64,000 nt of DNA from Obelidium mucronatum. Taxonomy: Eukaryota > Chytridiomycota > Chytridiomycetes > Chytridiales > Chytriomycetaceae. Positions 6,501-64,000 of the stretch are shown piece after piece. Position 1 is the first letter of the stretch. The number at the start of each line of letters is the position of its first letter. The position numbers and the translations under genes were made by a program. The stretch covers positions 248,001 to 312,000 of the forward strand of contig JAIVFH010000001.1 in the NCBI GenBank assembly GCA_025765595.1, in the 5' to 3' direction. Below the pieces are notes generated by a model that was not told where the DNA came from, searched no databases, and saw only the letters and a list, made by a program, of their open reading frames with translations.

Positions 6501-8922
6501 TCTCAGGCAATGAAAGACACGTTTAACAGCATTCGACCAAAGGGAACAGCCGCAATCGACTTTTCGAAAGCCTCAACTGTGGAGGCGACTGTTGCAGCCC
6601 CGGCGCCTGGAAAGAGCGTTCCGATAAGCGCTGGACCGGTTCTTAAGCCAAAATCAGATGCTGCTCAAACCCAAGTGAATACTTTGTTTCAAGCTGGGTC
6701 GTTAAAGGTTTTGTTTGTACATCATGTCAACCCGAAATCAATGCTAAAGAGAAATCTTCCCGCATAGTTTACAAATGTAGTAGGAAACGGATTTGATAAA
6801 TACGCTGGAAAAATCAGTGCTACTTTGGTCAATCCTGGAACGGTCGCAATCAGCCAGCTACTTCCTGCACTTCTTACCTACAAATATTGGTATTCCTTGA
6901 CAATGAATGGTGATGGAACTGTGTTAACTATTGAGATGAATTCTGGAAATGCCCCGATTGGTGCGGTTATTTGCACTATTGCACAGAAGGGAAGGAAAAG
7001 AGATGATGGTGTCGCGTCGGCTGAAGGAGAACTGACAATGACGCAAGTTTTCGTTACTGAGGATGATGTTGCAACAACAGCCGGTTCTAATTTGCAAACC
7101 GCCTCTACCGCCAATGATGTCCAAACTACGGCTGGTTCTAGTCTGCAAACCACCGCGACGACAAAATTAACTACAACCACAACACCAACACCATCTACAA
7201 CAACAACAACAACAACAACAACTACAACTAGTACAACTACGTCAACGAGTTCAAGAACCGCTACAACCACCAGTGATACATCATCAACGACTTCCACCTC
7301 GACTCCAACTGCAACTCCGAATCCGCTGACTTGCGCAAGCGTTGAATCTCCGCAAATTCGCGTCCCAGCGGAAAACACTGCCAGAGCAACCTCTTTTCTT
7401 GACGGTAACCCTTCTTGCGCTCAAAGCGCTGGATGCGGAGGTGGAACTGTGAGCTCCGTTTGCGCCAGCCTCGCGAGCTACAAGACGTGTGTAGTTGCTG
7501 CCTGTTCTAAAGATGAAATCGGATCGAGTCAGGCCAACATTGTGGTACTTTACTTTTTCCGCCATATTTTTACTTGCCGTACTAAGTACAAGATTTTTTT
7601 TTGGTAGTTTTGCAGCTTGAGCGCTCTATGCCCATTCTTGTCTACATCAGCCCCCGAAGCACAAACCAAATCCGCCGAAAAAGGAGTCCCAGGAAACGCA
7701 AAAAGAGTATCACCAGTCGGGAACGTACCTCAGGCAGTTAAAGACGCGTTAAACAACATTCGACCAAATGGAACTGCTGTCATCGACTTTTCGAAAGCCA
7801 TTACTGTGGAGGCGACTGTTGCAGCCCCGGCGCCTGGGACAAGCGTTTCGATAAACGCTGGAACGGTTATTGAGCCGCCAAGAACTGGTGCTTCCGAAAA
7901 CCAAGTGAATGTTTTGTTTCAAGCTGGGTCGTTAAAGGTTTGTTTGTATATCTCATGGCGTGACATCGAAATCAATGCTGAAGAGAAATCTTCCCGTCTA
8001 GTTTACAAATGTCGTAGGATACGGATTCGACAGTTTTGCTGGAAAAATCAGTGCTACTTTGGTCAATCCTGAAACTGTAGCTATCAGCGAGTTACTTCCT
8101 GCACTTGTTACCAACCAATTGTGGTATTCCTTGACAATGAATGGTGATGGAACTCTGTTCACTATTGAGCTGAATTCTGGAAATGGCGCGATTGGTGTGG
8201 TTATTTGCTCTGTTGCAAAGAAGGGAAGGAGAAGAGATGATGCTGTCGCGCCAGCTGAAGGAGAACTGAAAATGACGCAAGTTATCGCTCCTGTGGATGA
8301 TGTTGCAATAACGGCTGGCTCTAGCCTGCAAACCTCCACTACTACCACCGGTGTCCAAACAACGGCCGGTTCTAATTTGCAAACCACCGCTACTGCCACA
8401 GATGTCCAAACAACGGCCACTCCAAACGCATCACCGGCGCCACAATTTGTTATCAATTGCGCTGCTGGATCAAAGTGCTTTGTGTGCATGATTTCAAACT
8501 CCAACACTATCCGTCAAGAATGCAATCAAGGGGAAAAAAGCACGCCGCTTGTGGGTAGTGCTGTATTTACTGCGATTCAGCCGGCAGTTTATGCCTGTGT
8601 GGTGGAAAGTGGGTCTGAACGGGTTGCTCAAATTTGTACGCAAGGATCAAGGAATGCAATTCAAGCTCAAATTCAAGTTCCTCAAGAGGTTATTGTCTCA
8701 ACTTCAGAAGTTCCTCGGGTTTCTAGTTCTGGAATGAGCTCCACAGTTGTTGGCAGTAAATCATCATCACTTGTTGGATTGCCCATCTCAGTGGTTGTTC
8801 CAGAGGGTAAACCCGCAACTGTTAAAGCAGCAAATAATTTGTTTGTAATTGGTAGCTCTTCACAGAGACACGGAGTTGCTGGAATGCTGTTGGCAGCAGG
8901 GCTGATGCTCTTGATGCATTGA
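3531..8922 (+). CDS. Large modular secreted protein: ricin-B-like lectin folds, Ig-like domain, DUF3472-like domain, Thr-rich linkers, duplicated Cys-rich module, hydrophobic tail
   Basis: No function is assigned; the layout suggests a cell-wall or surface carbohydrate-binding protein. Nine exons give about 1,601 aa: 3531-3809, 3908-4050, 4126-4414, 4499-4638, 4698-6297, 6381-6707, 6768-7544, 7608-7937 and 8002-8922. Order: signal peptide (MRTVLLLLSLATAYAQAQ); two beta-trefoil-like blocks with NECWSV, VATCD and LLRIQQ motifs (to about residue 280); an Ig-like stretch; a DUF3472-like block at about 430-620 (WDMFSVDVTPHSW, FSLWDYKG, GVTYRFTM); an ACA/ACT-coded Thr run at about 704-737; a Cys-rich module starting PLTCASVE near 743 and repeated near 1109; and a C-terminal hydrophobic tail (GMLLAAGLMLL) that suggests a GPI anchor. 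Every junction keeps frame. The paralogue at 40596 has the module once. Domain names are from memory of family motifs. Confidence 0.75.
5956..6058 (+). repeat. Threonine-codon microsatellite (ACA/ACT/ACG/ACC) in linker
   Basis: An almost pure run of threonine codons inside the large secreted-protein gene encodes a probably O-glycosylated stalk between the DUF3472-like block and the Cys-rich module. Similar but shorter runs lie at about 7189-7290 in the same gene and 43008-43080 in the paralogue. Codons vary while the residue stays threonine, so selection on the protein rather than simple slippage is likely. Confidence 0.8.
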
Positions 8923-40595: not shown

Positions 40596-43500
40596 ATGAG
40601 AGCTCCATTACTGCTTCTCGCACTGGCAACAGCATACACACAAGCACAATCGACTCAGGCAGCAACTGCTGGTACCCTGCAAGTTGAAGGAACCGCAAAC
40701 TGTTTGGTGTTCAGTGGCTCGTCGATCACTCTGGCGAACTGCGACTCGGGAAACTTGAACCAGCTGGTCTCGTTGTCTTCTCCTATCGCCGGAAAAGTCA
40801 GAATCCAACAAGGCACCAAGTGTGCCAATGTTGCCAATGGGTCCAAGGATGCAGGAGCCAAAGTTGTAGTGAGTAAACCCCCTACTCTATTTTGCTTTTC
40901 CTCCTAATCCTTCTTAACTCCATCTTAATTCCGTCGCTTTCTCTATTCTACAAAAAAGACATGGGGCTGCAACACTGGAACTGAAGACAGTAACGATTTG
41001 TTTGCCGTGTCTCCCTCAACGGGCAACGACAAGCTCAAGTTCATATACACCGCCAAACCGACTTTGTGTCTTCATTCTACCGGGACCGGCATAGAAACAC
41101 AGTTTTGGGATTTTCTTCATTCACTTTTCAATTTCATGCTCTAACTCCCAAGGAAAATCGTTTTTAAGAACATGCCCCCAACCAGAAAGCGTTGTACGAA
41201 GAGCATCAGATGTGGGCTACCTATTCAACTTCAAACCTCTCGTGCTTCCTACAATTTCCAAAGGCTTTATTCAAATTCAAGAAACAAACAATTGCTGGTA
41301 CGTCGCATCGGGTGGAGAGATGAAAGTGGCCACGTGCGACGCCACGAAAGTGGCACAAAAGTTCAACTTTTTGTGGCAACCAAATGGGCTGTTGCGCATT
41401 CAGCAGCAGGAAAAGGTGGCCAATACGTTCAAGTGTGCAAATGTTGACACTGGAAAGGATGAGTTAAACTTGAAATTGATAGTTGAGCAATTTTTTTTTT
41501 TCAAAGTTTGTTTCGCGATTGTTGTTTATACAGGTGTATGATTTTTCTTAGACGTACGACTGCGGTACAAGCTCCGACCCATCCAATGACTTGTTTGCCG
41601 TGACCGGGACGAGCGTAACTCCGTTGAAGTACGGAGTCAACATTAGTAAATGCATGAGACTGAATCCAGCCGGTGACGGGCTTACAACTCAGTTCGTATC
41701 CAATGAGAAAAAAGATAGTATTAGTCGCTGACTCTGATTTCAAAACACAGAGCATGTCCTAGCTCCGATTCATTCGGATTTCAATTCAACCTGGTTGAGA
41801 CTCCCGTGATAGCTTCGAACTGTCCTGACGGGTCAACTCTCACAGCAGGAGCGGCAAACCCAAAAGCCGCCCTTGTTGGCTCCGTCTTTGGAAACGAGCT
41901 CTACGATCCCACGAACGAGGTCAATAACGGGTTCAAAGTAGTGCCCTTCACTTTCATTGTAAAAAACAAGAATGGAAACCCTCAACAAAGATGTAAAGTT
42001 ACGTGGACACCAACGACTTCAGAAAACTTTGCAAACGGTTGGATTTACCCAAACGCCGGCTTTTCTGATGCAAATGGTCTTGTTTCGGCTTATTGGATGG
42101 CCGGGTCGGGTGCAAGTCAATCTTTGGACGTGTCCATGACACTTAACGATGGCAGTACCGTTACTCAAACTATTACGGCCTCTGTTGAACCTCACAGAAC
42201 CCGTGCAAACTCCATCCACGTTACTTTCGACGCTCCTCAATGGGACATGTTTTCTATGGACGTTACTCCTCATTCATGGGCACCAACGACGTATTACGAA
42301 GCAATCGGTCTCCTCGGTGCCGCAGCAGGATACTGTGGAATCCAAAACAAATTGCTTCTCTTTTCACTGTGGGATTACAAAGGACAATCTCCGGTTGTCG
42401 TCGTGAAGGGCCCAAACGTTGCATGTAACACTTTTGGTGGCGAAGGCACTGGAATGCAATGCAAGCTTCCCTTCGAATCGAAATTAGACGTTACGTATCG
42501 TTTTACAATGTTGATTACAGCCGCACCCAATGGACAACAGGATTACTCGGTCCAAGTATTTGACACAAGCACAAGAAAGACTTACTTTTTGGCCACAATG
42601 AGAATCCCCGTTTTCGTGGCTCAGACCGCAGTTTACGCTTTCGTTGAGGATTGGTCCACCTTGTATAATTCTTGTTTGGAAACGGAGCAGCGTCATGCCA
42701 CGTTTAGCAATGTGCAATATTACCTTGCTAGCACTGGTAAATGGACGGCGGTTGATCAGGCGGGCGTTTATGGGGATGCTGTTTTTACTCCGAACCATAA
42801 TGAGATTTGTACAAACTACCAGTTTCAGTTTGCGAATGGTGCTTATTATGCTAGTACGGGTGGTATGGCGGTGGGGGTTCCCTTGAATACACCAGCCAAG
42901 GGTAACGCGTGGAGATGTTTACCGGGAACTATTTGTGAAGGCGCCGCTGATTATCTTGGAAAACTCGCTTTGCCTGCTTTTGTGGCTCCAGAGTTTGTAG
43001 TTCCAACTACAACAACAACTACTACAACAACGACGACGACAACTACAACTACAACTACTACTACTACTGCTACTACTACTCAAACTACAACTACATCAAA
43101 AACTACTTCAAGTACGTCGATGACTTCAACAAAAACATCATCCACAACTGGGACAACTTCGACAACATTGGCTACAACCACAGCTTCAACCACGATTATC
43201 ACGACTACAAGTAGCATATCAAAAACCAGCAGCACTACAGCATCAACAACCTCGACTCCTAAGGCAACTCCACTCACTTGCGCAAGTGTTGAACCTCCTC
43301 CAATTCTTGCTGCAGCGGAAAACGCTGCCAGGGCAACGTCTTTTCTTGACGGAAACCCTTCTTGCGCTCAAAGTGCGGGATGCGGAGGCGGAACTGTGAG
43401 CTCCGTTTGTGCCAGCCTCGCAAGCTACAAGACGTGTTCCGTTTCTGCCTGTTCTACAGAAGAAATGGGGGCGATTCAGGCCAACATTGTGGTAATTTCT

Positions 43501-44904
43501 TTTGTCCTCCGTATTTTTTTACTTGCCGTGTAAAGTACAAGCTTGGTCTTTTTCTAACCCTCCATTTAGTTTTGCAGTTTGAGCGCTCTATGCCCATTCT
43601 TGTCTACATCGGCCCCCGCCGCACAAGCCAAATCCGCCGAAAAGGGAGTTCCAGGAAACGCAAAAACAGCAGCAGCCGTCGCGAAACCATCCCAGGAAAT
43701 TAAAAACGCGTTCAACAACATTCGACCAAAGGGAACAGCCGCCATCGACTTTTCGAAAGCCACAATTGTGCAGGCCAATGTCGCAGCCCCGGCGCCTGGG
43801 AAAAGCGTTCCGGTAAACGCTGGAACTGTTCCTAAGCCGGTCGCAGGTGCTTCTCAAAACCAAGTGAATGTTTTGGTTCAAGCTGGATCGTTACAGGTTT
43901 TTTGTTTATATATAACTCATGACGTTACATGTCAAGCTGAACAACGAAAAAAACATCTTAACGTATAGTTTACAAATGTGGCAGGAAACGGATTTGGCAA
44001 GTACGCTGGAAAAATCAGTGCTACTTTGGTCAATCCTGGAACTGTCGCAATCAGCGAGTTGGTTCCGTCTGCGCTTACCGATTTGTGGTATTCCTTGACA
44101 ATGAATGGAGATGGAACTGTTCTCACTATAGAACTGAATGCTGGCAAGAGCGCGATTGGTGCGATTATTTGCTCTGTTGCAAAGAAGGGAAGGAAAAGAG
44201 ATGATGCTGTCGCGCCAGCGGAAGAAGAACTGACATTGACGCAAGTTATTGTTCCCGTGGATGATGTTGAAACAACGGCTGACTCTAGTCTGCAGACCAC
44301 CGCTGCCGCCACTGATGTCCAAACAACGGCCGGTTCTAGTCTGCAAACAACCGTTACCACCACTGATGTCCAAACAACGGCCACTCCAAACGCACCACCG
44401 GCTCCACAATTTGCTATCAATTGCGCTGCTGGATCAAAATGCTTTGTGTGCATGATTTCAAACTCCAACACTATCCGTCAAGAATGCAATCAAGGAGAAA
44501 GAAGTACGCCGCTTGTGGGTAGTGCTGTATTTACTGCGATTCAGCCGGCAGTGTATGCCTGTGTGGTGGAAAGTGGGTCTGAACGGGTTGCTCAAATATG
44601 CACGCAAGGATCCAGGAATGCAGTTCAAATTCAAGTTCCTCAAGAGATTATTGTCTCAGCTTCAGAAGTACCTCGGGTTTCTGGTTCTGGAATGAGCCCC
44701 ACAGTTGTTGGCAGTAAATCATCATCCCCTGTTGGATTGCCCATCTCCGTGTTTGTGCCGGAGGGTAAACCCGCAACTGTTAAAGCAGCAAACAATTTGT
44801 TTATAATTGGCAGCTCTTCACAAAGACACGGAGTTGCAGGAACGCTGTTGGTGGCAGCAGGGCTGATGCTTTTGTGCATTAATGACAAATATACTTACTG
44901 TTAG
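40596..44904 (+). CDS. Large modular secreted protein, paralogue B (single Cys-rich module)
   Basis: Paralogue of the gene at 3531 with the same architecture. Seven exons give about 1,290 aa: 40596-40868, 40959-41101, 41169-41481, 41552-41691, 41751-43491, 43570-43896 and 43969-44904. Intron positions and phases match copy A, including the CA/GTT-type donors. Signal peptide (MRAPLLLLALATAYTQAQ), two lectin-like trefoils, Ig-like stretch, DUF3472-like block (WDMFSMDVTPHSW, FGGEGTGMQCKLPF, FSLWDYKG), a longer Ser/Thr linker, one Cys-rich module (PLTCASVEPPP near 797), and a tail with CFVCMISNSNTIRQECNQG ending in a hydrophobic segment. Function unknown; a wall or adhesive role is inferred. Confidence 0.75.
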
Positions 44905-50227: not shown

Positions 50228-51568
50228 ATGTCAAACGCGTCAACGTACAGCTGGCTTCCGCTAGCCGGACCCAAATCAACTGAGTCCAATTCAGAAGCTG
50301 CCAAGGGAAAGCGATCGTTGAAGCTTTGGTCGCTTGGTTCTCCTTCTTCATTGGCCAGCACATCATCAGCACCATCATCAACTACCCCATCCACACATCC
50401 TCGGTTTGCAGACATAATAAAGGGCATGTCTCTTAAGAGATCCCGCCCCTTGTCTGCGTCATCGACCAGTTCAACAAGCCTGGATCATCTACATCTCAAT
50501 CGCACAACAAGTCTTCCGATCCCTGCAAAGCCCTTGTCTCTGGAAAACTCCAACAACAATCAATCTAGCACGATCGCGCAATCAATAGAACCCCCGAAAT
50601 TCACGCGATCACTCTCTACAAGCTCGATGCATAGCCAAAAGACTTTATTAGGGTCTGTTCATCGAGTAACATCCCTCCCCTTATTATCTTCCCCACCTCG
50701 TAACAAACAAACTTCATTACCACCACTACCGCTTCACCAACAACAACAACGAAACCAGCAGCAGCAGCAACAACAGCAACCCCAACAGCTCGGGCTTCAC
50801 AGACCTGGTTTCGCTTCGTGGCTCTCTGAAGAAATAACAAGAGATCCAGAGTTGGCTCTCAACCCAAAGCTTAGCAACAAAAGCAACAACAACAACATCC
50901 AAAACGATTTGAATGCAGACATACAGCAAGTAGTTGATGCGTCGTCGTCGAAATCGAGCCCGTTTCTATTTACCCGTGGGTTGCAGCGAACGCGATCTTT
51001 CTATCGACGTGTTGTAATTCAAGTATCTGATGGAAGTACGACCCCTGAACTTGGCCCCGATTCTGATGAGAGTGAAATCGAAGAAGAGGAGGAGGAGGCC
51101 AAATGCAATGAGGATAGTGACGACGACGATGAAGCAAAAGACATTGGGTTGTGTTTATTCGATGCGATTACGGAGGAGCGTCCTTCGTTTGAACAAATTA
51201 TGCAAATGGATCGTGAGTTTCAAGATAAAGTCGCGTTGCGGGTTGCTGCAGCGGAAGGGCGAACATCCCCATCAGCAGGGAATGAGAAACGGAGACTGGT
51301 TCCTCCAAGAATTGAGCGCTCATTTTCGTTGCCTTTGGCGAATGACTTGGAAATGTGGTTGGTTGATCAAATTTGTAAGTTTATCTTTTATAATTGGGCT
51401 CTTGTTATTATTATTGTTTGAATCTGATTCCTCCCTTTTTTTAAAAAAAATCAAGATACTGTTTCGTATCAAAAACTCAATCAAGGGCGTCGGCCGTTGG
51501 CAGATGAGGTTGTTGTTTCAAATTTGATAAAGTCTTTGGCCGTGAGATTCCCCGTGTTGATAAGATAA
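50228..51568 (+). CDS. C-terminal-signature family, member 1 (Ser/Gln-rich, unknown function)
   Basis: First and longest member of the tandem family; 419 aa. Exons 50228-51374 and 51456-51568 with a phase-1 intron. The long N-terminal part is Ser/Pro/Gln-rich and probably disordered, with an acidic block (ESEIEEEEEEAKCNEDSDD). RSFYRRVVIQVSDG and RPSFEQIMQMDREFQDKV are conserved-looking helices. The last exon encodes the signature: VSYQKLNQGRRPLADEVVV, then SNLIKSLAVRFPVLIR. Only the RPL and SNLI parts match the consensus well; QQ is replaced by DE. I recognise no known domain. Confidence 0.72.
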
Positions 51569-51944
51569 ATAAACTTGTATTTTACTCATGTATATTCGGC
51601 GAGGGTTTGTTCCGTACTGGTGGATCTGTATTACTTAAGTTCGAAGTCTGAAGAGACACATTGTTAATTTGGTGTTGCTTTTTGCCGTTATGAGTATGTG
51701 AAGACGACTTTCTTCTGCTGTGGTCCTTCAGGTTAAGGGAACCTCATAACTTGCCTTCTCAAGCGTTACTAACATCACAAAAGCCGCATCGTGAATATGT
51801 CACGATATTCTCATTCTTCAGTCATCGTTTTTGTGTAAATGGTCCGGATACTAAGAGTGATTAAAAAACGACCCAATTCCGTAAATTAACAAGTCTCCGC
51901 AACTGCCACAAACAAAAACCAAGAAAACCCCCAAAGTAGAAGCG
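51569..51944. other. Intergenic, no feature seen
   Basis: Promoter of the next family member; no coding or repeat signal recognised. Confidence 0.4.
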
Positions 51945-52982
51945 ATGGCAAGCTCAGTGCCCAATCCCGTGGCGCTTTCTCCCACACCGAGCCAAAAAGG
52001 AGCCTCTGCCTTCTCCTTCATCAAGACCATCTTTTCTCTGGGAATCCGGCGAAAACAAACAGCAGAAGTCCGCCCGCCAACACCAATCAGTAGTGCAATC
52101 AACACAACCATCTTACCACCCCGCCGCGAAACCAGTCTACAAGATGTGAAACGTTGGTCCAGTTCGCCACCCAAAATCTCTGTCTCCAGGCGAAGCACCT
52201 CTTTACTGGAGGCCAAATCTGTTTGGTCAAAAGATGATCCCCAGCAAGATCCAGAAACAAACCCTTCTGCAAAATTATCAAAGTCCTTGAAACAGCGAGT
52301 CAAAAAAAGCACCAGCTGGCATTCCTTTTCTTCCGAAAACAACAACACTATAATGAAGTCAAAGCTATCGTTTTCGGATTCCACGGACTTCGAACGAAGA
52401 ATGCTCGAGACATTGGGCGACACTGATATCCTGACTTCTTCATCGTCGATGCTGTCTGGAACTGACCAGAGAGAAAAAAAAACACGTGATTCTGGAGTGT
52501 TTGATATAGATTTAGTGCAAGAGCCACTTTCCATGAAAACGTCAACATCTAGTGATTTATCAAGGGATGGTAGTTTGGAGGAGAGGAGTCGCAGCGCAAT
52601 TGATGCGGAGCGATTGGAGACTGTTTTATCGGAAAAGGAGATTCTTGCGTTTTCAAAGCCATGGTCGGCCACCGATAAGGATGTGACGGAAGTTTTCAGC
52701 AACAACCCAAGGACTTCTCCAAATCCTTATCAGCATTTTAAGCGACCAGGGTCCGAAGATAGTAACCGAAGTAAAATGGGTCCCAAAGAAGGAGAATCGT
52801 TTCCCCAATATATTGGTGGGTGTTATTCTTTTTTTGTTGCTACGGGGTTTTAATTCAGCGTTGCAGACCGCGTTTCTATGAAGAAACTTGGAGATCCAGG
52901 GCGTCCTTTATACCAGCAAGTTCAGATATCAAACGTGATTGAACAAGTTCATTTCCTGCAATACGTGTATTGTCAGTTTTAA
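51945..52982 (+). CDS. C-terminal-signature family, member 2
   Basis: 328 aa. Exons 51945-52815 and 52867-52982, phase-1 intron. N-terminal block VPNPVALSPTPSQKG then FSFIKTIFSLG (compare NPVSLTPTN and LKALFGA in member 4). A middle block TRDSGVFDIDLVQ is shared with members 3 and 4 (RDSGIYDLD, RDSGVFDVD), followed by an acidic helix DAERLETVLSEKEILAFSK also shared with member 3. Last exon: VSMKKLGDPGRPLYQQVQI, then SNVIEQVHFLQYVYCQF. Rich in Ser and basic residues; no known domain. Confidence 0.75.
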
Positions 52983-53263
52983 GGCTACTTCCGCTCATTT
53001 ATTTTGTACCTTTATTTCCCTGCCACCCGAAGTAAGAACGCGCCAGTAAATAGATGGTAAATAGAAATACATTCGATCTTTGATTAGAAAAAAAATATAT
53101 GGAAATTAGATCGTGATTTACAATCGCTTGGATTTTTGGATGTTTTGATTATCGTAATGAGTTGGTTGAAATGCATACAAGGGTGGAGGGAGGCACAACT
53201 TGTCCCAAAAAAAAAAACTTGAGACAGAAGACCCATCAGTGAAAGAGCTGTCTACTTTAAGCT

Positions 53264-54201
53264 ATGCCAAGAAACTCCCTCGACTCCATTCGGTTCACCC
53301 CGACAGCCACGCTAAAGGCAATGTTTTCAGTAAGCAGTTTGAGCAGAAAACAGCAACCTGAACCACCCAAGGTTGTACAAATCCCCACCAGAAGCAATAA
53401 TTTCAAGGATTTAAAGGAAATGTGGTCTTCTAAGCAGAGCGAACCTCTTGCACCCATTGCTTCCGCCATTGCCCCTGCTGCTGTGTCTTCATTGCAAGAG
53501 AACATTGACGAAGGAATCTATGGACCGCCACCTGTTCGACCGCGAACAAGACGTGCATCCGCATCCACGCATGAAGTTATAACGGCACATCCTTCTTCAA
53601 CCCCGTCCTTTGATGCAATTCCAGAGGAGTCTCCAGAACCAGAGTTTATTGAAGATGCCGAAAGTGTGGAAAGCGACCACTCCTTTGACAGTGAAGACGA
53701 ATCGCTGCCCTCGAAACACAGCCGCGACTCTGGTATTTATGATCTGGACAATTCCTACAAGGGCACACCGTCACCCCCACGGTCACCTACAATTGACGAA
53801 TTGGAGGCAGTGGAGACAAAAGAGGAGGATGAAGCACGGGAGAGGCGGACAGCGCTGGAGGCTGAGCGGCTGCAGTTTATGATTTCCGAAGAAGAAGCGC
53901 GCGCGTTTGAGGATTCATTTTCTCAGTTCTTGAACCGTCAAATGCCAGCTCCACCGAAAGGGGGACGGAAACTACCACCACAAAGACATAAGCTTAGCGC
54001 CGATGATTTTTGCTCTTATATGAGTTGAGTAGTGTGCGCGAGGGTGTGGGAGGTTGGTGACTAACATCATCGTATCGTCTTCTAGAATACGTATCATGCA
54101 AGAAATTGGAGCGCCCACGCCCCATGTTTGAGCAAGTCTTGATTTCAAACTTGATCGACAAGGTTCAGCATTCGGAATTCTGTTACTGGCCCCTATTGTA
54201 A
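53264..54201 (+). CDS. C-terminal-signature family, member 3
   Basis: 291 aa. Exons 53264-54023 and 54086-54201, phase-1 intron. N-terminal TATLKAMFSVSSL, then NFKDLKEMWSSKQSE, parallel to SFADLRSAWTSKHGD in member 4. Middle RDSGIYDLD, then ALEAERLQFMISEEEARAF. Last exon: YVSCKKLERPRPMFEQVLI, then SNLIDKVQHSEFCYWPLL. Members 2 and 3 both end in a short aromatic/Cys extension, so they are the closest pair. Function unknown. Confidence 0.75.
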
Positions 54202-54589
54202 AAAAGAAAAAGAGAAGGACAGCGATGACGAAGATGATTCTTATTTTTCCAGCAGCCACTTGAAGATAGAAATGAAGATAGAAAGTTGGCTGTATGCTGT
54301 TTTTTTTTTGTCGTTTACGTCATCCGTTTCATTTATGTCGGCCTTTACGTAAAAAAGGCCTGTCAGTCCATCTCCACGGTCGTCTCCACTGTCCATGATA
54401 CTGTGGCTAAAATAATGTGTCTAAGCGCCTTTGCTGGCTTCTAATGGCATCCGCATGATCTCGCTCCTTGCATGAATCGGAAGTTGTCCTCAAAACTCAG
54501 TGCGCAAAAAAGGCCTCTTAAATTTAATCACACTGGTGCCCAAACATTTGGCTTTCAAATCAAATAAGAAAATCTTCGACATTATCAGC
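54202..54589. other. Intergenic, no feature seen
   Basis: Contains a T run near 54300. The open frame continues upstream of 54590 to 54500, but the family start motif places the start codon at 54590. Confidence 0.4.
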
Positions 54590-55201
54590 ATGCCCGTCAG
54601 CGCACCCAATCCCGTTTCCTTGACGCCAACGAACACTCCCGCATCGCCTATTTCGCATCTGAAGGCTCTCTTTGGCGCAAAGCAGCAGCGGAGCCCTGGC
54701 CGAGAGTCGCAGATTGCAAAGAAGAGTTCAAGCTTTGCAGACCTCCGCAGCGCCTGGACCTCAAAGCATGGCGACAGCAAGGCTGGCGGCTCCTTGAAAC
54801 TGGCCAAGAAGCCGAGGCGGGAACGACGGCCGTCGGCATTGGCCACTCACAGCTTACCGGCAGAACGGGCCAGCGAGGACAACGAGTTCATTCAGCAGCT
54901 GGGTGATGTTCAGATGTCTGGAGACACAATGCCGAAAAACCAAAGAGACTCGGGGGTCTTTGACGTTGACGTTCTCTACAACCAACCTCATCCGGGTGTC
55001 ACAACCACCCCCTTCACTGATCCTGAATCGGACTCGCAGGAAGAATCGCTTTCGGAATCAGTACCTGTCAAGTTATCAGAGGCAGAAATCCAAGCTCTCA
55101 CAAAAGCTTTTTCTTTATTGATAAAAAAAATATGCCTTCAGCAACAGCTCATCACAACTATGATTCAACATCTACCACGTCGTCATCAAAGACTACTCTG
55201 A
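54590..55201 (+). pseudogene. C-terminal-signature family, member 4, lacking its signature exon (truncated at the duplication edge)
   Basis: It begins like a normal member: APNPVSLTPTNTPASP, then HLKALFGAKQQRSP, SFADLRSAWTSKHGD, RDSGVFDVD and KLSEAEIQALTKAFSLL. At an A run at 55123-55130 homology to sister genes stops, and the frame runs into the out-of-frame start of the next gene, ending at 55201. The expected phase-1 intron and KL...RPL..QQ exon are missing. The break coincides to the base with the start of the 5,511-bp repeat, so the 3' part was lost in the rearrangement, or the assembly is wrong here. Confidence 0.65.
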
Positions 55202-56321
55202 CCAATATTAAGGACAAGGGTCTCGCTACATTCAAAGCCCTGTTTCAAAGTGGGACCCAAAGTAGTGCTGGCAAATGGAGTGGTCGAACGTCTGTCGACA
55301 ATGAAACCAAGCTTCAAGTCGTCAATAGTGACAACGATTCACTTCAAACAGTTGGGATTCCTGTGACGCTTCTAAATGGATCAAATCAAGTCGGTGACCC
55401 TATGCTGTTGGCAGAGAGCGATGAGAGTGATAGCGAAGATGATAAGGGATTCGACAGGCTAAGGAATGAACTCCTTTCAGGCGGAAGCTCATATCAATAT
55501 GAACAGCAAGAGGAGCCTGTAGAAGATGTTCGATCGTCACTCTCTGATGTAGCGACTTTGAAACGAGCGTATTCAGAATCTGTGATGGGATTGAGATCAT
55601 CAGTAGATGGTGATTTGCCACCCCGCTTCGGAAAAAAGGTTGTGAAGGAATTTATGGGTTATTATTTAGGTATTTGCTTTATTTGTCTTTGTGTAGTGGT
55701 TGGCGTGTTGTTTGGTGGTCAAGTTTCGGAGGTAGCAAAGATGATGAAACACAGTTATCCCTGCATCAAGCAGAAAATTGGATGCAGCCATCAGATAACG
55801 ATCTTCTCACTGAGCTTCTGAGTCGATCGATGGTTATGACACAAGAACCCACAACGATGGTTGGAGGAAACACTTCCAAATTTAGCGGGATTCTTGAAGT
55901 CGAAGTTGACCAACGGCCGTCACTGGAAGATTGGAATTGCATACCTAGGTCAACATCAGACCTTAATGAAATGGATATAGATGAAACACATGATTTGGAC
56001 TTTTCTGGATCATCACAGGAGCTCGAGAGTCGGTTGGCAAGTCTTTTGCAGCCCGTTCGATCACATTCGCCAAGTTCTCTCTTTGATCGACAATCGAATT
56101 ACTTGTTACGTGAGTTGTGTTTCTACACTGATTATCAACACCTTGTGTCTTTGTGCTTGGTTCTGATTCCTTTGATTTTTATGGGTTTTGTACGTTTAGA
56201 CGCAATCTCTCGACGAAAGCTCAACCAGTTACAAAGACCTTTATCGCAACAAGTTCATATTTCTAATTTACTCTCGCGATTGCAGTATTTTAGTGGTCCA
56301 GTGTACTCTTACACATTGTAG
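55132..56321 (+). CDS. C-terminal-signature family, member 5 (copy 1)
   Basis: 345 aa. Exons 55132-55669, 55732-56109 and 56200-56321, both introns phase 1. The first join (YYLG/SKDDETQLSL) was chosen because it alone keeps frame; it uses GTATTT and a weak GAG acceptor. N-terminal DKGLATFKALFQSG matches LKALFGA of member 4. Acidic/Ser-rich middle (ESDESDSEDDKGFDRL). Last exon: AISRRKLNQLQRPLSQQVHI, then SNLLSRLQYFSGPVYSYTL, again with an aromatic tail. Repeated exactly at 60643. Function unknown. Confidence 0.75.
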
Positions 56322-56515
56322 GGGCTCAGATTGTCATTAGTTTATCTTTTTCAGCCCTCTTGAAATAAATCAGTAATTCTAATTTCTTTTGTAACGGGAA
56401 GAAACTTAAAAAATGATAAGTCAGAGTTTGTGGCTCACCAAAAAAAAAGCCAAGCACTGCCAATTTCTTATCATCCAAAACTATACGGAAAACCCTCACC
56501 ATCCCCGCCGTCCGT

Positions 56516-57193
56516 ATGCCGATAGCATTCACCCGCAGTCTTTCTCTACCAGTGGCATCTTCTGGATCCAAGCCAAAGGGGATCACCAAGATGAAGGCCT
56601 TTTGGTCAACTGGATCAAAGGATTCAAAACCACAATCGTCCTCCGATTCATTATTGACATCACCATCATCCAAAAGAAAAACACCCCCACCGGCCAATAC
56701 CAAACCTGATCAACATCCAAACACCGACGCCAGATCGAGCCATGACACTAACCCGCTCGTCAAACCCGATCGGACTCGGTTAAGTGTCAGTTTAGACTCT
56801 GACATCAAGACGGAAGGACGACTCAAGGCCTTCCTCAAAAGCCCTGCTTTCCAAAAGTCTCGTTCAATGGTTGATGATTCGGAATTATTTTCAGAAGGCA
56901 GGAGTAATAAGGATTTGTTGCGGGAAAAACGATACTCATTGCAAGACTTGACGACATCCGCGAAAGCAAAAGCGACCTTGGAAGTAAAAAAAGCAATGAA
57001 AGGATTCGCGTCAGAGTATAAACGGAAATACCTTGGTAATTCCTGCTTTTGTTTTGCGTCATTCACGTGTCTAAGCCTCACTCAACAACAATAACCTAAA
57101 ATAGCTCAAATATCGTATGAAAAGTTGGAAAAAAAGAGACCTTTATACCAACAGCTTCTTGTCGCAAACTTGATTGTTGACTTCTTGGTTTAA
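56516..57193 (+). CDS. C-terminal-signature family, member 6 (copy 1)
   Basis: 202 aa. Exons 56516-57035 and 57105-57193, phase-1 intron. N-terminal RSLSLPVASSGSKPKG, then ITKMKAFWSTGSK: a KMKAFWS motif shared with members 8 (KLRSFWS) and 9 (KLKSLWS). Middle TRLSVSLDSDIKTEGRLKAF, then RYSLQDL. The RLSV element recurs in members 7, 8 and 9 and looks like a basophilic-kinase or 14-3-3 type site (inference). Last exon: ISYEKLEKKRPLYQQLLV, then ANLIVDFLV and stop. It is the short-tailed form of the signature. Function unknown. Confidence 0.77.
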
Positions 57194-57542
57194 CGTTTTT
57201 TCCCTACATCGGTTTTTGTTTTTCCAATCCAGTTGGCCCGACTCATCCCCAGTATATTAAAGTAAATAAAGTGTATACATATGTATAAAATAAATGTGTT
57301 CTAAACATGATGTAAATCACGTGTTGGTCAGTTTTTAAGGGTTGAAGAATAGCCACAGTTAATCCGATTTCGTTGCCTGAACACTATTTTGCGCACTAAT
57401 CAAAGTCCACAGCCAATCAGCCTCTTTGTTATGCATACTGTAATTTAAGAACAAAAGCAAGGGGCTTGACTCCCCAGTTGAGCACCAGTAATATTTGAGA
57501 TAAATAATAAAAAAAAAAGATCCAAAGAACCAAAACCCCGAA

Positions 57543-58223
57543 ATGGTGTCAATTGAACTTCGCCCGGAATCCTCCCTTTCAAGACGCTCTGGAATCTTGC
57601 TTTCAAAGATCAAGACCTTGTTTTCATGTCACACTGTTCCGCTAGAAACAAGACTGCCGCCAATGAGTGGCAGTGCCCAGGCCGCTCATGATGCTGACAT
57701 GCTTAACTCGCCCTGTATACCATCGCGATACCGTCGCCGATCCTCAAAGCCAAATTCGAATCTTTGCCAAACAGCTATGTGGCCGGAAAGCATGAGTAGC
57801 GGAGATGATGATATTGATGATGTTGGTGAGGGTGAAAAATATGATCAAGACAGCGTGCTGTCAGACTACAATCGACAATCATACCGACGAAAAGAACGAC
57901 GTGTTGCGAGGCTGAGTGTCGCTTTGGACACAGACATTCGAAGCCTGAAGATTCAACGCGAATTCCAGTCTCAAGTCTTGACTACAAACAAAACCCAATT
58001 CAATGAAGTCGTCGATGGGAGCCGAGCGCCGCCACTGTCTCCAGGATCTCTGTTTGAAGAATCCATGGAGCCGCTTTACATCAAACGCGTGTCTCTTCTA
58101 CCTGGGTTTGAAAAGAAACTTGTTGCATTCACGTCGTTGGAGAAATTGAAGGAGCCGCGTTTTCGACCTCTTTGGCAACAAGTCTTGATCGCCAATTTGG
58201 TTCTTGAATTACTCGACTGTTGA
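57543..58223 (+). CDS. C-terminal-signature family, member 7, intronless (copy 1)
   Basis: Single exon, 226 aa. N-terminal SRRSGILLSKIKTLFSC parallels KMKAFWS. Middle VARLSVALDTDIRSLKIQREF is very close to TRLSVSLDSDIKTEGRLKAF in member 6. The end reads AFTSLEKLKEPRFRPLWQQ, then VLIANLVLELLDC. It is the only member in which the signature is not preceded by the conserved phase-1 intron, although the signature itself is among the best conserved. Function unknown. Confidence 0.78.
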   Translation: MVSIELRPESSLSRRSGILLSKIKTLFSCHTVPLETRLPPMSGSAQAAHDADMLNSPCIPSRYRRRSSKPNSNLCQTAMWPESMSSGDDDIDDVGEGEKYDQDSVLSDYNRQSYRRKERRVARLSVALDTDIRSLKIQREFQSQVLTTNKTQFNEVVDGSRAPPLSPGSLFEESMEPLYIKRVSLLPGFEKKLVAFTSLEKLKEPRFRPLWQQVLIANLVLELLDC

Positions 58224-58482
58224 ATGTGTTTTTTTTTTTGCTCCTTTGAATTTGTGCCTCTCTATCACCATACCTCTATCAATATGAATGCCCAGTAAAT
58301 CAGGTCAAATAATAGCTGCTTCTTTTAAGATATCTGTGGTCTCTTTCTTGGTACACTTTTTATCAGCTGATAATGTTTTGCCAAGGATTAAGGTTGATTG
58401 ATGATGTTCACTGAAACGGAAACAAGCAAAAGACACAGAACCAACAAAGAAAGAACCAAACGCAAAAATAGAGGCTACAGAA

Positions 58483-59094
58483 ATGGCAGCTTCAATCGTT
58501 CGTTCACCGCCTCCTCCTCCTTCGGCACCTTCAGGCCTGAAAGCCAAAGGATTCGCGAAACTCCGCTCCTTTTGGTCAACAACAAATCTACGAGCCACTG
58601 CAGCTGTCGAACCAAAACCAAACGAAAATTCTTCAAAGTCAATGTTACCAAAAATGGGATCGAGCGGGGTCTTGGTGAAGGCAAAGAGTCTTGATATACT
58701 CCGAACCGCCTTTGTTGTCCGCCAACAACCACCCCCTCCTCCAGAGCCCCCCAGCCGCCATCGATTAAGTGTTGCATTGAGCGCTGATGATGGGGAATTA
58801 AGGTATAAGCCAAGCCTCCAGTTAATTGGGCAATCTTTGGCGGCATCCTATGGAATGGGGAATATCAGGCTTGCTGCCAATGCAAGAAATCACAAGAGAT
58901 ATTCGCAGCAAATACCAACCGCGTTTGAAAAAACATATTTGGGTGAGCAAGAACGCGTTCCCACAATTTCTTGCCAAACTTAACTCATTCATCCAAAAGT
59001 TCGTGTCTCGTTTGCCAAGCTGGAGGATACTTTCAGCTCAAGATCACTGCACCAGCAGCTTTTAATTTCGAATCTCATATTGTACTTGAACTAA
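58483..59094 (+). CDS. C-terminal-signature family, member 8
   Basis: 184 aa. Exons 58483-58942 and 59000-59094, phase-1 intron (acceptor AAAAG). N-terminal Pro run, then KAKGFAKLRSFWSTTN. Middle SRHRLSVALSADDGEL. Last exon: VSFAKLEDTFSSRSLHQQ, then LLISNLILYLN and stop; here RPL has become RSL. Without the intron the frame ends at once in EQERVPTISCQT, which has no counterpart in sisters. The second copy of this gene begins at 63994. Confidence 0.75.
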
Positions 59095-59801
59095 CGTGAC
59101 TTTCACCAACTTGACGCACCTCTTCTTGAATAAAACTTACCCTGTCGTACCTCATTTTGCTATGCAGACAGTGATTTCAGCTGAATAAAGAGAGTTGTTT
59201 TTGAAACATTTCTAGCAACATCGATTCGAACCCTAAACAAGGTTCGTTTCCAAGAAATCAAAGCCAAGTCCAACCTCAGCACGCGCTGAGGCAAGCACGC
59301 CAACTCATCGCAAATCTTGATCAAAGCTGGATGAGTCAGATAGACTCTTTAGGGCAACCTAAAAGATACAAATTAGTTTATTCATTGCTTATTAATCCTG
59401 TGGACGGGTAAGAATCCGTAATAGTGACTGGGAACGGTATAGATAATAGCCCGGCTGTTACATAAGGAAAGTACTTGGTTGCGGATGTCGTTGAGTTGAC
59501 CGGGATTGTGTATTTCTTTGATCTCCAACAGAAAAAACGTGTAGCGGACTAAGCCGTGGCGTCCTATTTTATTACCAGAGCTCTGTGGCCTGCCGTGCTC
59601 TCCATCCTCTCATTAGCGTGCTCATATTACACGACCTCGTTTTATATCGACAACCACTGAACAAGAGTATGTTCAGTTATGATAAGGGAAAAAGCGGATT
59701 GCGTCACAAACAAATTTTAATTGGAAATTTTTCTTTCAATGTGCTTGCATTTTGCGGCCTTATCATCACAAAAGAAAAGTTAGCCCAAATCATAAAAAAC
59801 A
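59095..59801. other. Intergenic, 707 bp, no gene recognised
   Basis: Mixed-composition sequence with no coding frame I trust. A GGTTCGAAT-like text on the minus strand near 59222-59235 was examined as a possible tRNA T-arm but its stem does not pair. The right part should be the promoter of member 9. Confidence 0.45.
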
Positions 59802-60438
59802 ATGCCTGCAGCGCTTGTCCGCACAGCCTCTGAACCAGTGCCACCAAAAGTCAAGGGAATGGCGAAGCTCAAATCCCTTTGGTCTCCCGTCCCGAATGCG
59901 TCTACGCCTATTAATCAAGTTGGCACCAAAGAGTCAACTCCTGTCAAGCAAATCCCAAACAGCGTCAGAGACAGAGCTGCTTCTCCCCCACCAGAGTCTC
60001 TAGCAGCTTTCTCTTCTGAAGAGAAACACCCGAAGCGGAGATCGCAGAGCGTGGATCACCGCCGGACTCACCATCGATTGAGTGTAGACGTCGAGGACCA
60101 CTCACTGCAAAGCCTTGCGCACATGCTTCTCTCCAACGACCCAGATGCTTCTATGAGAATTCCAGGAAGGAAATCGAAGCGATCGCAGCCCCGCTCGGCA
60201 TCAAAGCCGAGAATCTTGATGAAGAGAGACCCAAGTCTGTCTGGAGGCGAAATCGACAAGGCATATCTGAGTAAGTCTCCATCTTCATTTTACAGCTCCT
60301 CCACCTTTTTGAAAAAGCCTGACGTTTCTTTCTTTTTCTTTTGTAGAAGACCTCTCATATGAGAAACTACGACAGACCGCAAGGCCTCTTTTGCAACAAC
60401 TTCTTGTTGCATCATTTATTGTTGAATTGCTGGACTGA
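59802..60438 (+). CDS. C-terminal-signature family, member 9
   Basis: 186 aa. Exons 59802-60270 and 60347-60438, phase-1 intron. N-terminal RTASEPVPPKVKG, then MAKLKSLWSPVPN. Middle THHRLSVDVEDHSLQSLAHML and a Ser/Arg-rich basic patch (KSKRSQPRSASKPR). Last exon: LSYEKLRQTARPLLQQLLV, then ASFIVELLD and stop. Members 6, 8 and 9 share the same three-block plan (xKxxxxWS, RLSV, C-terminal signature) and form the compact subgroup. Function unknown. Confidence 0.77.
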
Positions 60439-60642
60439 TCCCAGCTAATTCCTTGTTTGTTCAGTTTTGTACTTAGCCACTTTTCGTTTTCAAACAATCG
60501 TATAATAAAAGCTCGCACGCCAACTTCATACTATTTCATTCACCAGTTCATGGGCTATTCAGTATCTTTAGTTTTGATTGCTTGAGTCCAAGCTGCAATT
60601 GACTTTGAGGAAAACACGTGCAAAAAAAAAAAAAAAAAAAAT

Positions 60643-61832
60643 ATGCCTTCAGCAACAGCTCATCACAACTATGATTCAACATCTACCACGTCGTCATCAA
60701 AGACTACTCTGACCAATATTAAGGACAAGGGTCTCGCTACATTCAAAGCCCTGTTTCAAAGTGGGACCCAAAGTAGTGCTGGCAAATGGAGTGGTCGAAC
60801 GTCTGTCGACAATGAAACCAAGCTTCAAGTCGTCAATAGTGACAACGATTCACTTCAAACAGTTGGGATTCCTGTGACGCTTCTAAATGGATCAAATCAA
60901 GTCGGTGACCCTATGCTGTTGGCAGAGAGCGATGAGAGTGATAGCGAAGATGATAAGGGATTCGACAGGCTAAGGAATGAACTCCTTTCAGGCGGAAGCT
61001 CATATCAATATGAACAGCAAGAGGAGCCTGTAGAAGATGTTCGATCGTCACTCTCTGATGTAGCGACTTTGAAACGAGCGTATTCAGAATCTGTGATGGG
61101 ATTGAGATCATCAGTAGATGGTGATTTGCCACCCCGCTTCGGAAAAAAGGTTGTGAAGGAATTTATGGGTTATTATTTAGGTATTTGCTTTATTTGTCTT
61201 TGTGTAGTGGTTGGCGTGTTGTTTGGTGGTCAAGTTTCGGAGGTAGCAAAGATGATGAAACACAGTTATCCCTGCATCAAGCAGAAAATTGGATGCAGCC
61301 ATCAGATAACGATCTTCTCACTGAGCTTCTGAGTCGATCGATGGTTATGACACAAGAACCCACAACGATGGTTGGAGGAAACACTTCCAAATTTAGCGGG
61401 ATTCTTGAAGTCGAAGTTGACCAACGGCCGTCACTGGAAGATTGGAATTGCATACCTAGGTCAACATCAGACCTTAATGAAATGGATATAGATGAAACAC
61501 ATGATTTGGACTTTTCTGGATCATCACAGGAGCTCGAGAGTCGGTTGGCAAGTCTTTTGCAGCCCGTTCGATCACATTCGCCAAGTTCTCTCTTTGATCG
61601 ACAATCGAATTACTTGTTACGTGAGTTGTGTTTCTACACTGATTATCAACACCTTGTGTCTTTGTGCTTGGTTCTGATTCCTTTGATTTTTATGGGTTTT
61701 GTACGTTTAGACGCAATCTCTCGACGAAAGCTCAACCAGTTACAAAGACCTTTATCGCAACAAGTTCATATTTCTAATTTACTCTCGCGATTGCAGTATT
61801 TTAGTGGTCCAGTGTACTCTTACACATTGTAG
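60643..61832 (+). CDS. C-terminal-signature family, member 5 (copy 2)
   Basis: Identical in translation to the gene at 55132. Exons by offset: 60643-61180, 61243-61620 and 61711-61832; 345 aa. Only the sequence upstream differs: here the start codon follows a 20-base A run and the gap after member 9, whereas copy 1 follows the cut-off member 4. Confidence 0.75.
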
Positions 61833-62026
61833 GGGCTCAGATTGTCATTAGTTTATCTTTTTCAGCCCTCTTGAAATAAATCAGTAATTCTAATTTCTTT
61901 TGTAACGGGAAGAAACTTAAAAAATGATAAGTCAGAGTTTGTGGCTCACCAAAAAAAAAGCCAAGCACTGCCAATTTCTTATCATCCAAAACTATACGGA
62001 AAACCCTCACCATCCCCGCCGTCCGT

Positions 62027-62704
62027 ATGCCGATAGCATTCACCCGCAGTCTTTCTCTACCAGTGGCATCTTCTGGATCCAAGCCAAAGGGGATCACCAA
62101 GATGAAGGCCTTTTGGTCAACTGGATCAAAGGATTCAAAACCACAATCGTCCTCCGATTCATTATTGACATCACCATCATCCAAAAGAAAAACACCCCCA
62201 CCGGCCAATACCAAACCTGATCAACATCCAAACACCGACGCCAGATCGAGCCATGACACTAACCCGCTCGTCAAACCCGATCGGACTCGGTTAAGTGTCA
62301 GTTTAGACTCTGACATCAAGACGGAAGGACGACTCAAGGCCTTCCTCAAAAGCCCTGCTTTCCAAAAGTCTCGTTCAATGGTTGATGATTCGGAATTATT
62401 TTCAGAAGGCAGGAGTAATAAGGATTTGTTGCGGGAAAAACGATACTCATTGCAAGACTTGACGACATCCGCGAAAGCAAAAGCGACCTTGGAAGTAAAA
62501 AAAGCAATGAAAGGATTCGCGTCAGAGTATAAACGGAAATACCTTGGTAATTCCTGCTTTTGTTTTGCGTCATTCACGTGTCTAAGCCTCACTCAACAAC
62601 AATAACCTAAAATAGCTCAAATATCGTATGAAAAGTTGGAAAAAAAGAGACCTTTATACCAACAGCTTCTTGTCGCAAACTTGATTGTTGACTTCTTGGT
62701 TTAA
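62027..62704 (+). CDS. C-terminal-signature family, member 6 (copy 2)
   Basis: Identical in translation to the gene at 56516. Exons 62027-62546 and 62616-62704; 202 aa, with the RLSV block and the RPLYQQLLVANLI signature unchanged. Confidence 0.77.
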
Positions 62705-63053
62705 CGTTTTTTCCCTACATCGGTTTTTGTTTTTCCAATCCAGTTGGCCCGACTCATCCCCAGTATATTAAAGTAAATAAAGTGTATACATATGTATAAA
62801 ATAAATGTGTTCTAAACATGATGTAAATCACGTGTTGGTCAGTTTTTAAGGGTTGAAGAATAGCCACAGTTAATCCGATTTCGTTGCCTGAACACTATTT
62901 TGCGCACTAATCAAAGTCCACAGCCAATCAGCCTCTTTGTTATGCATACTGTAATTTAAGAACAAAAGCAAGGGGCTTGACTCCCCAGTTGAGCACCAGT
63001 AATATTTGAGATAAATAATAAAAAAAAAAGATCCAAAGAACCAAAACCCCGAA

Positions 63054-63734
63054 ATGGTGTCAATTGAACTTCGCCCGGAATCCTCCCTTTCAAGACGCTC
63101 TGGAATCTTGCTTTCAAAGATCAAGACCTTGTTTTCATGTCACACTGTTCCGCTAGAAACAAGACTGCCGCCAATGAGTGGCAGTGCCCAGGCCGCTCAT
63201 GATGCTGACATGCTTAACTCGCCCTGTATACCATCGCGATACCGTCGCCGATCCTCAAAGCCAAATTCGAATCTTTGCCAAACAGCTATGTGGCCGGAAA
63301 GCATGAGTAGCGGAGATGATGATATTGATGATGTTGGTGAGGGTGAAAAATATGATCAAGACAGCGTGCTGTCAGACTACAATCGACAATCATACCGACG
63401 AAAAGAACGACGTGTTGCGAGGCTGAGTGTCGCTTTGGACACAGACATTCGAAGCCTGAAGATTCAACGCGAATTCCAGTCTCAAGTCTTGACTACAAAC
63501 AAAACCCAATTCAATGAAGTCGTCGATGGGAGCCGAGCGCCGCCACTGTCTCCAGGATCTCTGTTTGAAGAATCCATGGAGCCGCTTTACATCAAACGCG
63601 TGTCTCTTCTACCTGGGTTTGAAAAGAAACTTGTTGCATTCACGTCGTTGGAGAAATTGAAGGAGCCGCGTTTTCGACCTCTTTGGCAACAAGTCTTGAT
63701 CGCCAATTTGGTTCTTGAATTACTCGACTGTTGA
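63054..63734 (+). CDS. C-terminal-signature family, member 7, intronless (copy 2)
   Basis: Identical in translation to the gene at 57543; single exon, 226 aa, ending in RPLWQQVLIANLVLELLDC. Confidence 0.78.
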   Translation: MVSIELRPESSLSRRSGILLSKIKTLFSCHTVPLETRLPPMSGSAQAAHDADMLNSPCIPSRYRRRSSKPNSNLCQTAMWPESMSSGDDDIDDVGEGEKYDQDSVLSDYNRQSYRRKERRVARLSVALDTDIRSLKIQREFQSQVLTTNKTQFNEVVDGSRAPPLSPGSLFEESMEPLYIKRVSLLPGFEKKLVAFTSLEKLKEPRFRPLWQQVLIANLVLELLDC

Positions 63735-63993
63735 ATGTGTTTTTTTTTTTGCTCCTTTGAATTTGTGCCTCTCTATCACCATACCTCTATCAATATGAAT
63801 GCCCAGTAAATCAGGTCAAATAATAGCTGCTTCTTTTAAGATATCTGTGGTCTCTTTCTTGGTACACTTTTTATCAGCTGATAATGTTTTGCCAAGGATT
63901 AAGGTTGATTGATGATGTTCACTGAAACGGAAACAAGCAAAAGACACAGAACCAACAAAGAAAGAACCAAACGCAAAAATAGAGGCTACAGAA

Positions 63994-64000
63994 ATGGCAG
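63994..64000 (+). CDS. C-terminal-signature family, member 8 (copy 2), first codons only
   Basis: The start codon and four following bases of a second copy of the gene at 58483 lie at the right edge; the rest is outside the window. Called only from the exact repeat. Confidence 0.6.

Follow-up and report, generated by a model that had tools for sequence, protein, structure and literature searches.

What is the module with which a row of neighbouring and otherwise dissimilar genes ends, and what might the proteins that carry it do? The question is raised by contig C1 (JAIVFH010000001.1) of Obelidium mucronatum, a chytrid of the family Chytriomycetaceae (Chytridiomycota) with a genome of 48.3 Mb in 694 contigs. 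We analysed C1:248001-312000, a stretch of 64,000 nucleotides that we call the window; coordinates given without a contig refer to it. Nine adjacent genes, g1 to g9, could be rebuilt at 50228-60438, all on the + strand, and eight of them keep the C-terminal module, so the nine genes and eight modules that an initial annotation had read from this DNA were recovered. Its estimate of about 180-420 amino acids (aa) for the Ser-rich products also agrees with the seven settled models, which measure 184-419 aa and each end at a stop without an internal one. The cluster extends ~12 kb beyond the window, to ~C1:324.1 kb, where g10-g13 bring the total to ~13 tandem genes. We consider it likely that these genes constitute a tandem family of disordered adaptors or inhibitors of protein phosphatase 2A (PP2A) with its B55 subunit, in which the terminal exon would encode a docking tail similar to Zds_C, a domain of the yeast PP2A-Cdc55 regulators Zds1 and Zds2; the B55 binding is deduced from this similarity.

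The recurrence of the module is real and well above chance. When hidden Markov models (HMMs) were built with one module left out at a time, each of the eight omitted modules was found again among 2343 six-frame window segments, at E values between 8.5e-12 and 1.1e-5, and the best segment from outside the family reached E 0.13. An HMM of all eight window modules found module-bearing open frames on the plus strand, 22 in the joined C1 stretch (the window extended by 29.7 kb) and 13 in the stretch of contig C247, where the locus is present in a second version that is 97-99% identical; these counts apply to E < 1e-3, with three weaker matches on C1 and two on C247 (E 0.24 or worse) left out. In seven of the eight module genes (g1, g2, g3, g5, g6, g8, and g9), the module is predicted to follow a phase-1 GT-AG last intron, the split codon of which lies three residues ahead of the S in the motif S-x2-KL. 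The initial annotation had placed this intron at the same spot in the same number of genes, which our predicted models bear out, and the last junctions of the deposited g2, g3, and g9 proteins agree with the rebuilt ones. Two details of the motif had to be amended: The spacing given as S-x3-KL is S-x2-KL, the S, K, and L of which are invariant in MAFFT alignments of 8 and of 12 rows, and the RPL-x-QQ that follows stands as a majority rule, since g8 reads RSL and g1 reads RPLADEV.

The module had been thought to match no named domain, which did not hold. In a scan with 24736 Pfam models, all eight window modules matched Zds_C (PF08632) and no other family, at 15.5-24.5 bits, and none of eight shuffled controls (one per window module) gave any Pfam match. 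An existing Pfam domain does cover the module, with the qualification that these scores lie below the gathering cut-off, which is 25 bits for Zds_C and likewise for SERTA. The highest of them, that of g2, amounted to 24.5 bits for the peptide and 20.8 bits for the full-length protein. Among the five modules located outside the window or on C247, two passed the cut-off as peptides, namely, g13 (27.9 bits, and 26.6 bits in the genome scan, thus above the cut-off in every scan) and g11 (25.1 bits), and g10 matched Zds_C weakly (12.2 bits). Over the 13 cluster modules, 11 match Zds_C, one matches SERTA, and one matches nothing.

The genome also holds long genes with this domain. Scanning it with Zds_C yielded 14 matches at E ≤ 10, including three long genes on contig C6 that exceed the cut-off, at C6:169140 (58.6 bits) and at C6:239147 and C6:248377 (39.4 bits each). 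In the reverse direction, the HMM of the eight window modules matched these long genes at 35.9 bits (the 39.4-bit kind) and 27.1 bits (the 58.6-bit kind), the associated E values of 1.3e-9 and 7.4e-7 referring to a small set of loci picked in part by their Zds_C match. In the genes at C6:239147 and C6:248377, a phase-1 intron is located three residues ahead of the S, precisely as in the cluster. These two genes form an inverted pair (L024, L025), 97.7% identical over 4.1 kb and ~9 kb apart, and because of this near-identity they do not count as independent cases. We therefore call the module Zds_C-like, and, judging from sequence, it is probably homologous to Zds_C, as the reciprocal matches and the shared intron argue; we do not call the proteins Zds, as the seven bodies compared with the C6 genes lack similarity to them outside the module. 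A weak Zds_C match was also seen at C433:1886-1963 (15.3 bits, E 0.94; L016, L026).

A number of observations weigh against this assignment. None of the eight window modules reached the Zds_C cut-off, and g11 fell below it in the genome scan (22.1 bits). The g12 module peptide had no Pfam match, and the sole Pfam match of the g4 module, taken from C247, was SERTA (PF06031; 14.6 bits, E 0.028). Full-length family proteins matched Zds_C at E ≤ 1 in six of eight cases and below 0.01 in only two; in the Pfam scan, P0008 and P0011 had no Zds_C match, and P0003 and P0005 scored higher with another family, itself below its cut-off, than with Zds_C. Of the 52 positions in the profile, the match spans 19-48 only. 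In the C6:169140 gene, the intron lies 26 residues before the S with the acceptors considered, which stand farther from the module, and comparing the bodies of g1-g3 and g6-g9 with the open frames of C6 revealed no similarity (best E 0.19). A Foldseek search with the g2 model returned 16 matches at E ≤ 10, none of them in the PDB at E ≤ 0.001. Lastly, of the B55-contact positions considered below, only i+2 and i+4 were free to vary, since the search pattern constrained residue i, residue i-2, and S-x2-KL wholly or in part.

The module alignment gave four weak matches only among the sequences of solved structures, which we took as chance; the best, 7ah0_A, reached E 0.0047 as a sum over repeats, none of which passed as a single stretch. 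In protein database searches, all of the matches listed (4, 1, and 6) belonged to Obelidium, to Siphonaria, or to the window; the first search scored the best 7999 candidates by shared words, and only one candidate was available to the second.

The predicted shape of the tail fits a known mode of phosphatase docking. As described in PMC11446282, Zds1, SERTA proteins, and IER2/5/5L bind B55 through a helix-loop-helix. AlphaFold2 predicts a helix-loop-helix tail in both g7 and g2, where the second helix begins at a residue that we denote i. For g7 (a 60-aa piece, with an alignment of 12 rows), i is L44, and the predicted local distance difference test score (pLDDT) was 77-87 in the last 20 residues, compared to a mean of 66. 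For g2, where the alignment held 5 sequences only, i is L305, and block means of 81-83 were obtained over residues 281-320, with 249 of the 328 residues below 50. The low confidence outside the tail suggests that the bodies are disordered, as far as such models can tell.

We then applied the contact rules given in PMC11446282 to the 13 cluster modules and to two modules from C6. At the two free positions, i+4 was V or L in 15 of 15 modules and i+2 was Q, E, or D in 15 of 15 (Zds1 has E); at the constrained ones, i was L or M in all 15 and i-2 was R or K in 14. The genome also encodes a B55, with matches on C29 and C361 that are perhaps two versions of one gene. With its exons joined, the Obelidium B55 is identical to human B55alpha (3dw8_B) at 245 of 403 aligned positions, and of the pocket residues that PMC11446282 names, it keeps 10 of 10. 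The initial annotation had guessed that the local family, perhaps of regulators or adaptors, has an amphipathic docking helix in common; the predicted helix-loop-helix and its likeness to a phosphatase-docking module speak for this guess.

We propose that each protein would dock on B55, the regulatory subunit of PP2A, through the terminal-exon helix-loop-helix. Positive charge for B55 patch 3 would come from the first helix, which ends in S-x2-K-L, and from the Arg of the loop, and the second helix would place L or M (residue i) and V or L (residue i+4) into the hydrophobic patch 1 of B55. The remainder of each protein would be a disordered, Ser-rich body that differs among paralogues. Because the docking tail is common to the family and the bodies differ, each gene product may act as a PP2A-B55 adaptor or competitive inhibitor with its own cargo or regulatory input. 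The cluster would most likely have expanded by tandem duplication from a Zds-type gene in whose last exon only the docking half of Zds_C was retained. We infer the recruiting or inhibiting direction and the Zds-gene origin, like the B55 binding and the disorder, from these similarities.

How does this compare with other readings of the module? The yeast Zds1/Zds2 Zds_C domain shares with it the S-x2-KL, the R-P-L loop, the VLISNL helix, and the predicted helix-loop-helix, and two long Zds_C genes in the Obelidium genome have the intron at the corresponding position; the cluster tails differ in covering the second half of the profile only, in standing at the C-terminus, and in being spread over ~13 tandem genes, and seven cluster bodies lack similarity to the long Zds_C genes of this genome (compared with C6 frames only). 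SERTA had been the identity suggested at first sight and was dropped upon finding that the eight window modules match Zds_C, so that it remains only as the weak g4 match. Under this rival reading, the module would be of the SERTA type, its counterpart in animals, and the proteins would serve as cofactors of transcription instead of regulators of the Zds type. The g4 score cited above speaks for it, and so does the shared type, since SERTA proteins (PF06031; for instance, CDCA4 and SERTAD2) display the helix-loop-helix and the B55 contact pattern published in PMC11446282. Because SERTA, IER2/5/5L, and Zds1 are all described there as binding B55 in this manner, the SERTA reading predicts the same docking. 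We nevertheless regard it as very unlikely: The count over the 13 modules favours Zds_C by 11 to one, the intron is shared with Zds_C genes, and the genome has no SERTA match over the cut-off, the two that were found (15.5 and 14 bits) lying elsewhere. The IER2/IER5/IER5L module, a B55-binding helix-loop-helix as well according to the same text, differs in being N-terminal, and the Pfam scans of the cluster, the sole comparison made, gave no IER family.

Alternatively, the module may be an unrelated docking helix for another partner, its likeness to Zds_C resulting from convergence of a short amphipathic helix pair. Such an origin would account for window scores that stay under the Pfam cut-off and for a resemblance confined to ~25 residues with nothing in common beyond the module. 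It sits less well with an intron that matches two long Zds_C genes in position and phase, with HMM matches in both directions, with g13 passing the cut-off, and with shuffled peptides that matched nothing, and we judge convergence to be unlikely.

A third possibility takes the proposed B55 docking further and draws on shorter blocks that recur in subsets of the genes. Endosulfine, ARPP19, and Igo are PP2A-B55 inhibitors with a B55-binding helix. The block reported as RDSGVFD occurs as RDSG[VI][FY]D in g2, g3, and g4 (at 52485, 53723, and 54944) and in Siphonaria P0003 and P0004, and a second reported block, RLSV, was found in g6, g7, g8, and g9, both in gene subsets as the initial annotation had it. 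RDSG[VI][FY]D recalls FDSGDY, the Greatwall site of Arpp19/ENSA (PMC7700614), with a likeness limited to D-S-G-x-aromatic. The cluster could on this basis be a toolkit of bipartite, phospho-switchable PP2A-B55 inhibitors, where the tail would hold B55, RDSG[VI][FY]D of g2-g4 would act like a Greatwall site, and an LSExEIxAxxKxFS segment would provide a further contact. The cluster differs from the endosulfine family (PF04667) in having no match to it; the two PF04667 matches of the genome both lie on C191, where they are exons of one Obelidium endosulfine gene with YFDSGDY. We hold this elaboration to be distinctly improbable. If it were true, chytrids would set PP2A-B55 output through many dedicated inhibitors, and Zds_C, SERTA, and the IER N-terminus would be one ancient docking module for which the chytrid tails provide a sequence bridge. 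A segment resembling LSExEIxAxxKxFS is conserved between g2 (residues 230-241, a low-confidence helix in its model) and Siphonaria P0003/P0004.

The N-terminal block, written as one pattern, K-x-L/F-F/W-S, was present in nine of the ten cluster N-termini scanned, g1 being the exception, and it occurred twice in the C6:169140 gene and not at all in the C6:239147 frames. In the open frame of the C6:169140 gene (L023, C6:163000-172900), KRWFSLKRK at residue 188 and KALFGSLKR at residue 235 resemble this cluster block.

Returning to the Zds_C-like tail, its conservation could be followed into Siphonaria. The g9 module is identical to that of each of two Siphonaria proteins at 25 of 28 positions, compared to 80 of 158 and 66 of 158 in the rest. 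For g10, taken from C247, the values were 24 of 27 in the module and 90 of 180 outside it, and for g5, 28 of 40 and 40 of 101. In these three gene pairs, the tail is conserved more strongly than the body between Obelidium and Siphonaria. Five Siphonaria proteins were found, all from records labelled UNVERIFIED_CONTAM at the source; four have the module at the C-terminus, and P0004 lacks it as deposited. Their locus tags run in an unbroken or almost unbroken series (HDU68_012723, 012726, and 012727 on a 47065-base contig; 012747 and 012748 on a 13027-base contig), which suggests that the family is clustered in Siphonaria also.

The tail resembles a named domain with a known yeast partner, and what is unusual is its use as a terminal exon in a large number of small proteins that are probably disordered. 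Zds1 and Zds2 are termed Saccharomycetales-specific PP2A-Cdc55 modulators in PMC6506691, which mentions a fission yeast orthologue as well; in the early-diverging fungus studied here, three long Zds_C genes exceed the cut-off, and ~13 small tandem genes have the docking tail only. If the B55 binding is true, chytrids would possess a naturally occurring collection of B55 adaptors that combine a common tail with variable bodies, which would help in learning how the phosphatase is directed and in connecting Zds_C of fungi with the SERTA and IER proteins of animals. A search of open-licence papers, with subscription papers and preprints outside its scope, found none on Zds, chytrids, and PP2A together and only PMC11446282 joining the SERTA domain with Zds1; open-licence papers on PF08632 or Zds_C included none on such a chytrid family, judged by title.

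The individual gene models, all on the + strand, are as follows. Where several GT-AG pairs were possible, we chose the usual donor and the pair that retained the whole module. The first gene, g1 (50228-51568), has exons at 50228-51374 and 51456-51568 and encodes 419 aa, with the last-exon module TVSYQKLNQGRRPLADEVVVSNLI (Zds_C 20.5 bits). Next to it, g2 (51945-52982; exons 51945-52815 and 52867-52982; 328 aa) has the module RVSMKKLGDPGRPLYQQVQISNVI, and its spliced model equals the deposited Obelidium mucronatum protein BDR26DRAFT_848698 (P0001) over all 328 aa. The third gene, g3 (53264-54201; exons 53264-54023 and 54086-54201; 291 aa), carries YVSCKKLERPRPMFEQVLISNLI (17.8 bits); the deposited protein (P0005) measures 269 aa owing to one additional intron that cuts out the K-x2-WS block. 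Only the 5' part of g4 is found on C1 (54590-55122), and the whole gene, with the module NRISYQKLSHRLPLYQHVHIANLL, is on C247. At 55132-56321, g5 is a chimera with its last intron at 56110-56199 and last exon at 56200-56321, ending in AISRRKLNQLQRPLSQQVHISNLL (16.6 bits); its first intron is unsettled, which places it outside the length range given above. The remaining genes are g6 (56516-57193; exons 56516-57035 and 57105-57193; 202 aa; QISYEKLEKKRPLYQQLLVANLI, 18.3 bits), the intronless g7 (57543-58223; 226 aa; TSLEKLKEPRFRPLWQQVLIANLV, 19.4 bits), g8 (58483-59094; exons 58483-58942 and 59000-59094; 184 aa; RVSFAKLEDTFSSRSLHQQLLISNLI, 19.7 bits), and g9 (59802-60438; exons 59802-60270 and 60347-60438; 186 aa; DLSYEKLRQTARPLLQQLLVASFI, 15.5 bits), which differs by 6 aa near the N-terminus from the deposited P0006 (BDR26DRAFT_848723).

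The genes g5 to g9 are part of a repeat unit of ~5511 bp on the + strand (55132-60642). A second copy follows at 60643-64000, also on the + strand, and comprises g5' (60643-61832), g6' (62027-62704), g7' (63054-63734), and the start of g8'; beyond the window, a further unit starts at 66156 and a partial one at 71666, giving a regular spacing of 5511, 5513, and 5510. Of the repeated copies that had been noted earlier, copies 1 and 2 differ at 0 of 3358 bases, and comparing the C1 copies gave 0 mismatches and 13 gap openings across 11.6 kb. In the C247 version of this region (C247:29251-35464), the unit is single-copy; on C247, each gene has one module, and g4 is whole and carries its module. 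The C1 sequence jumps at ~55122 into the 5' part of g10 and at ~55713 into native g5. Because of the first jump, g4 appears without a module on C1, and because of both, the C1 version of g5 is a chimera of the g10 5' part and the native g5 3' part. Siphonaria P0010 supports g10 as a gene of its own, and Siphonaria P0003 supports g4 and g5 as adjoining. Poly-A runs stand ahead of the unit starts on C1 (window positions 55118-55132, 60643, 66156, and 71666).

The difference between C1 and C247 (three units versus one, with g4 cut and g5 chimeric on C1) reflects either unequal recombination or an assembly error, and the 5.5-kb triplication may be a recent expansion or an artefact. We give slightly less than an even chance to the view that g5'-g9' and the further copies are an assembly error and no triplication at all, a matter that is independent of the identity of the module. 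The complete lack of mismatches among copies, the single unit in the C247 version, and the cut and chimeric genes at the first junction argue for an error. The same picture would result, however, if one haplotype had undergone a recent tandem expansion, and the regular spacing of the units also speaks against an error.

Elsewhere in the window, no tRNA was found. A second paralogous set occupies 4672-8919 and 41725-44901, where open frames recur at ~4.7, 6.8, 8.0, 41.7, and 44.0 kb; two of these open frames start with LISKHRACPS and three with FTNV-GxGF.

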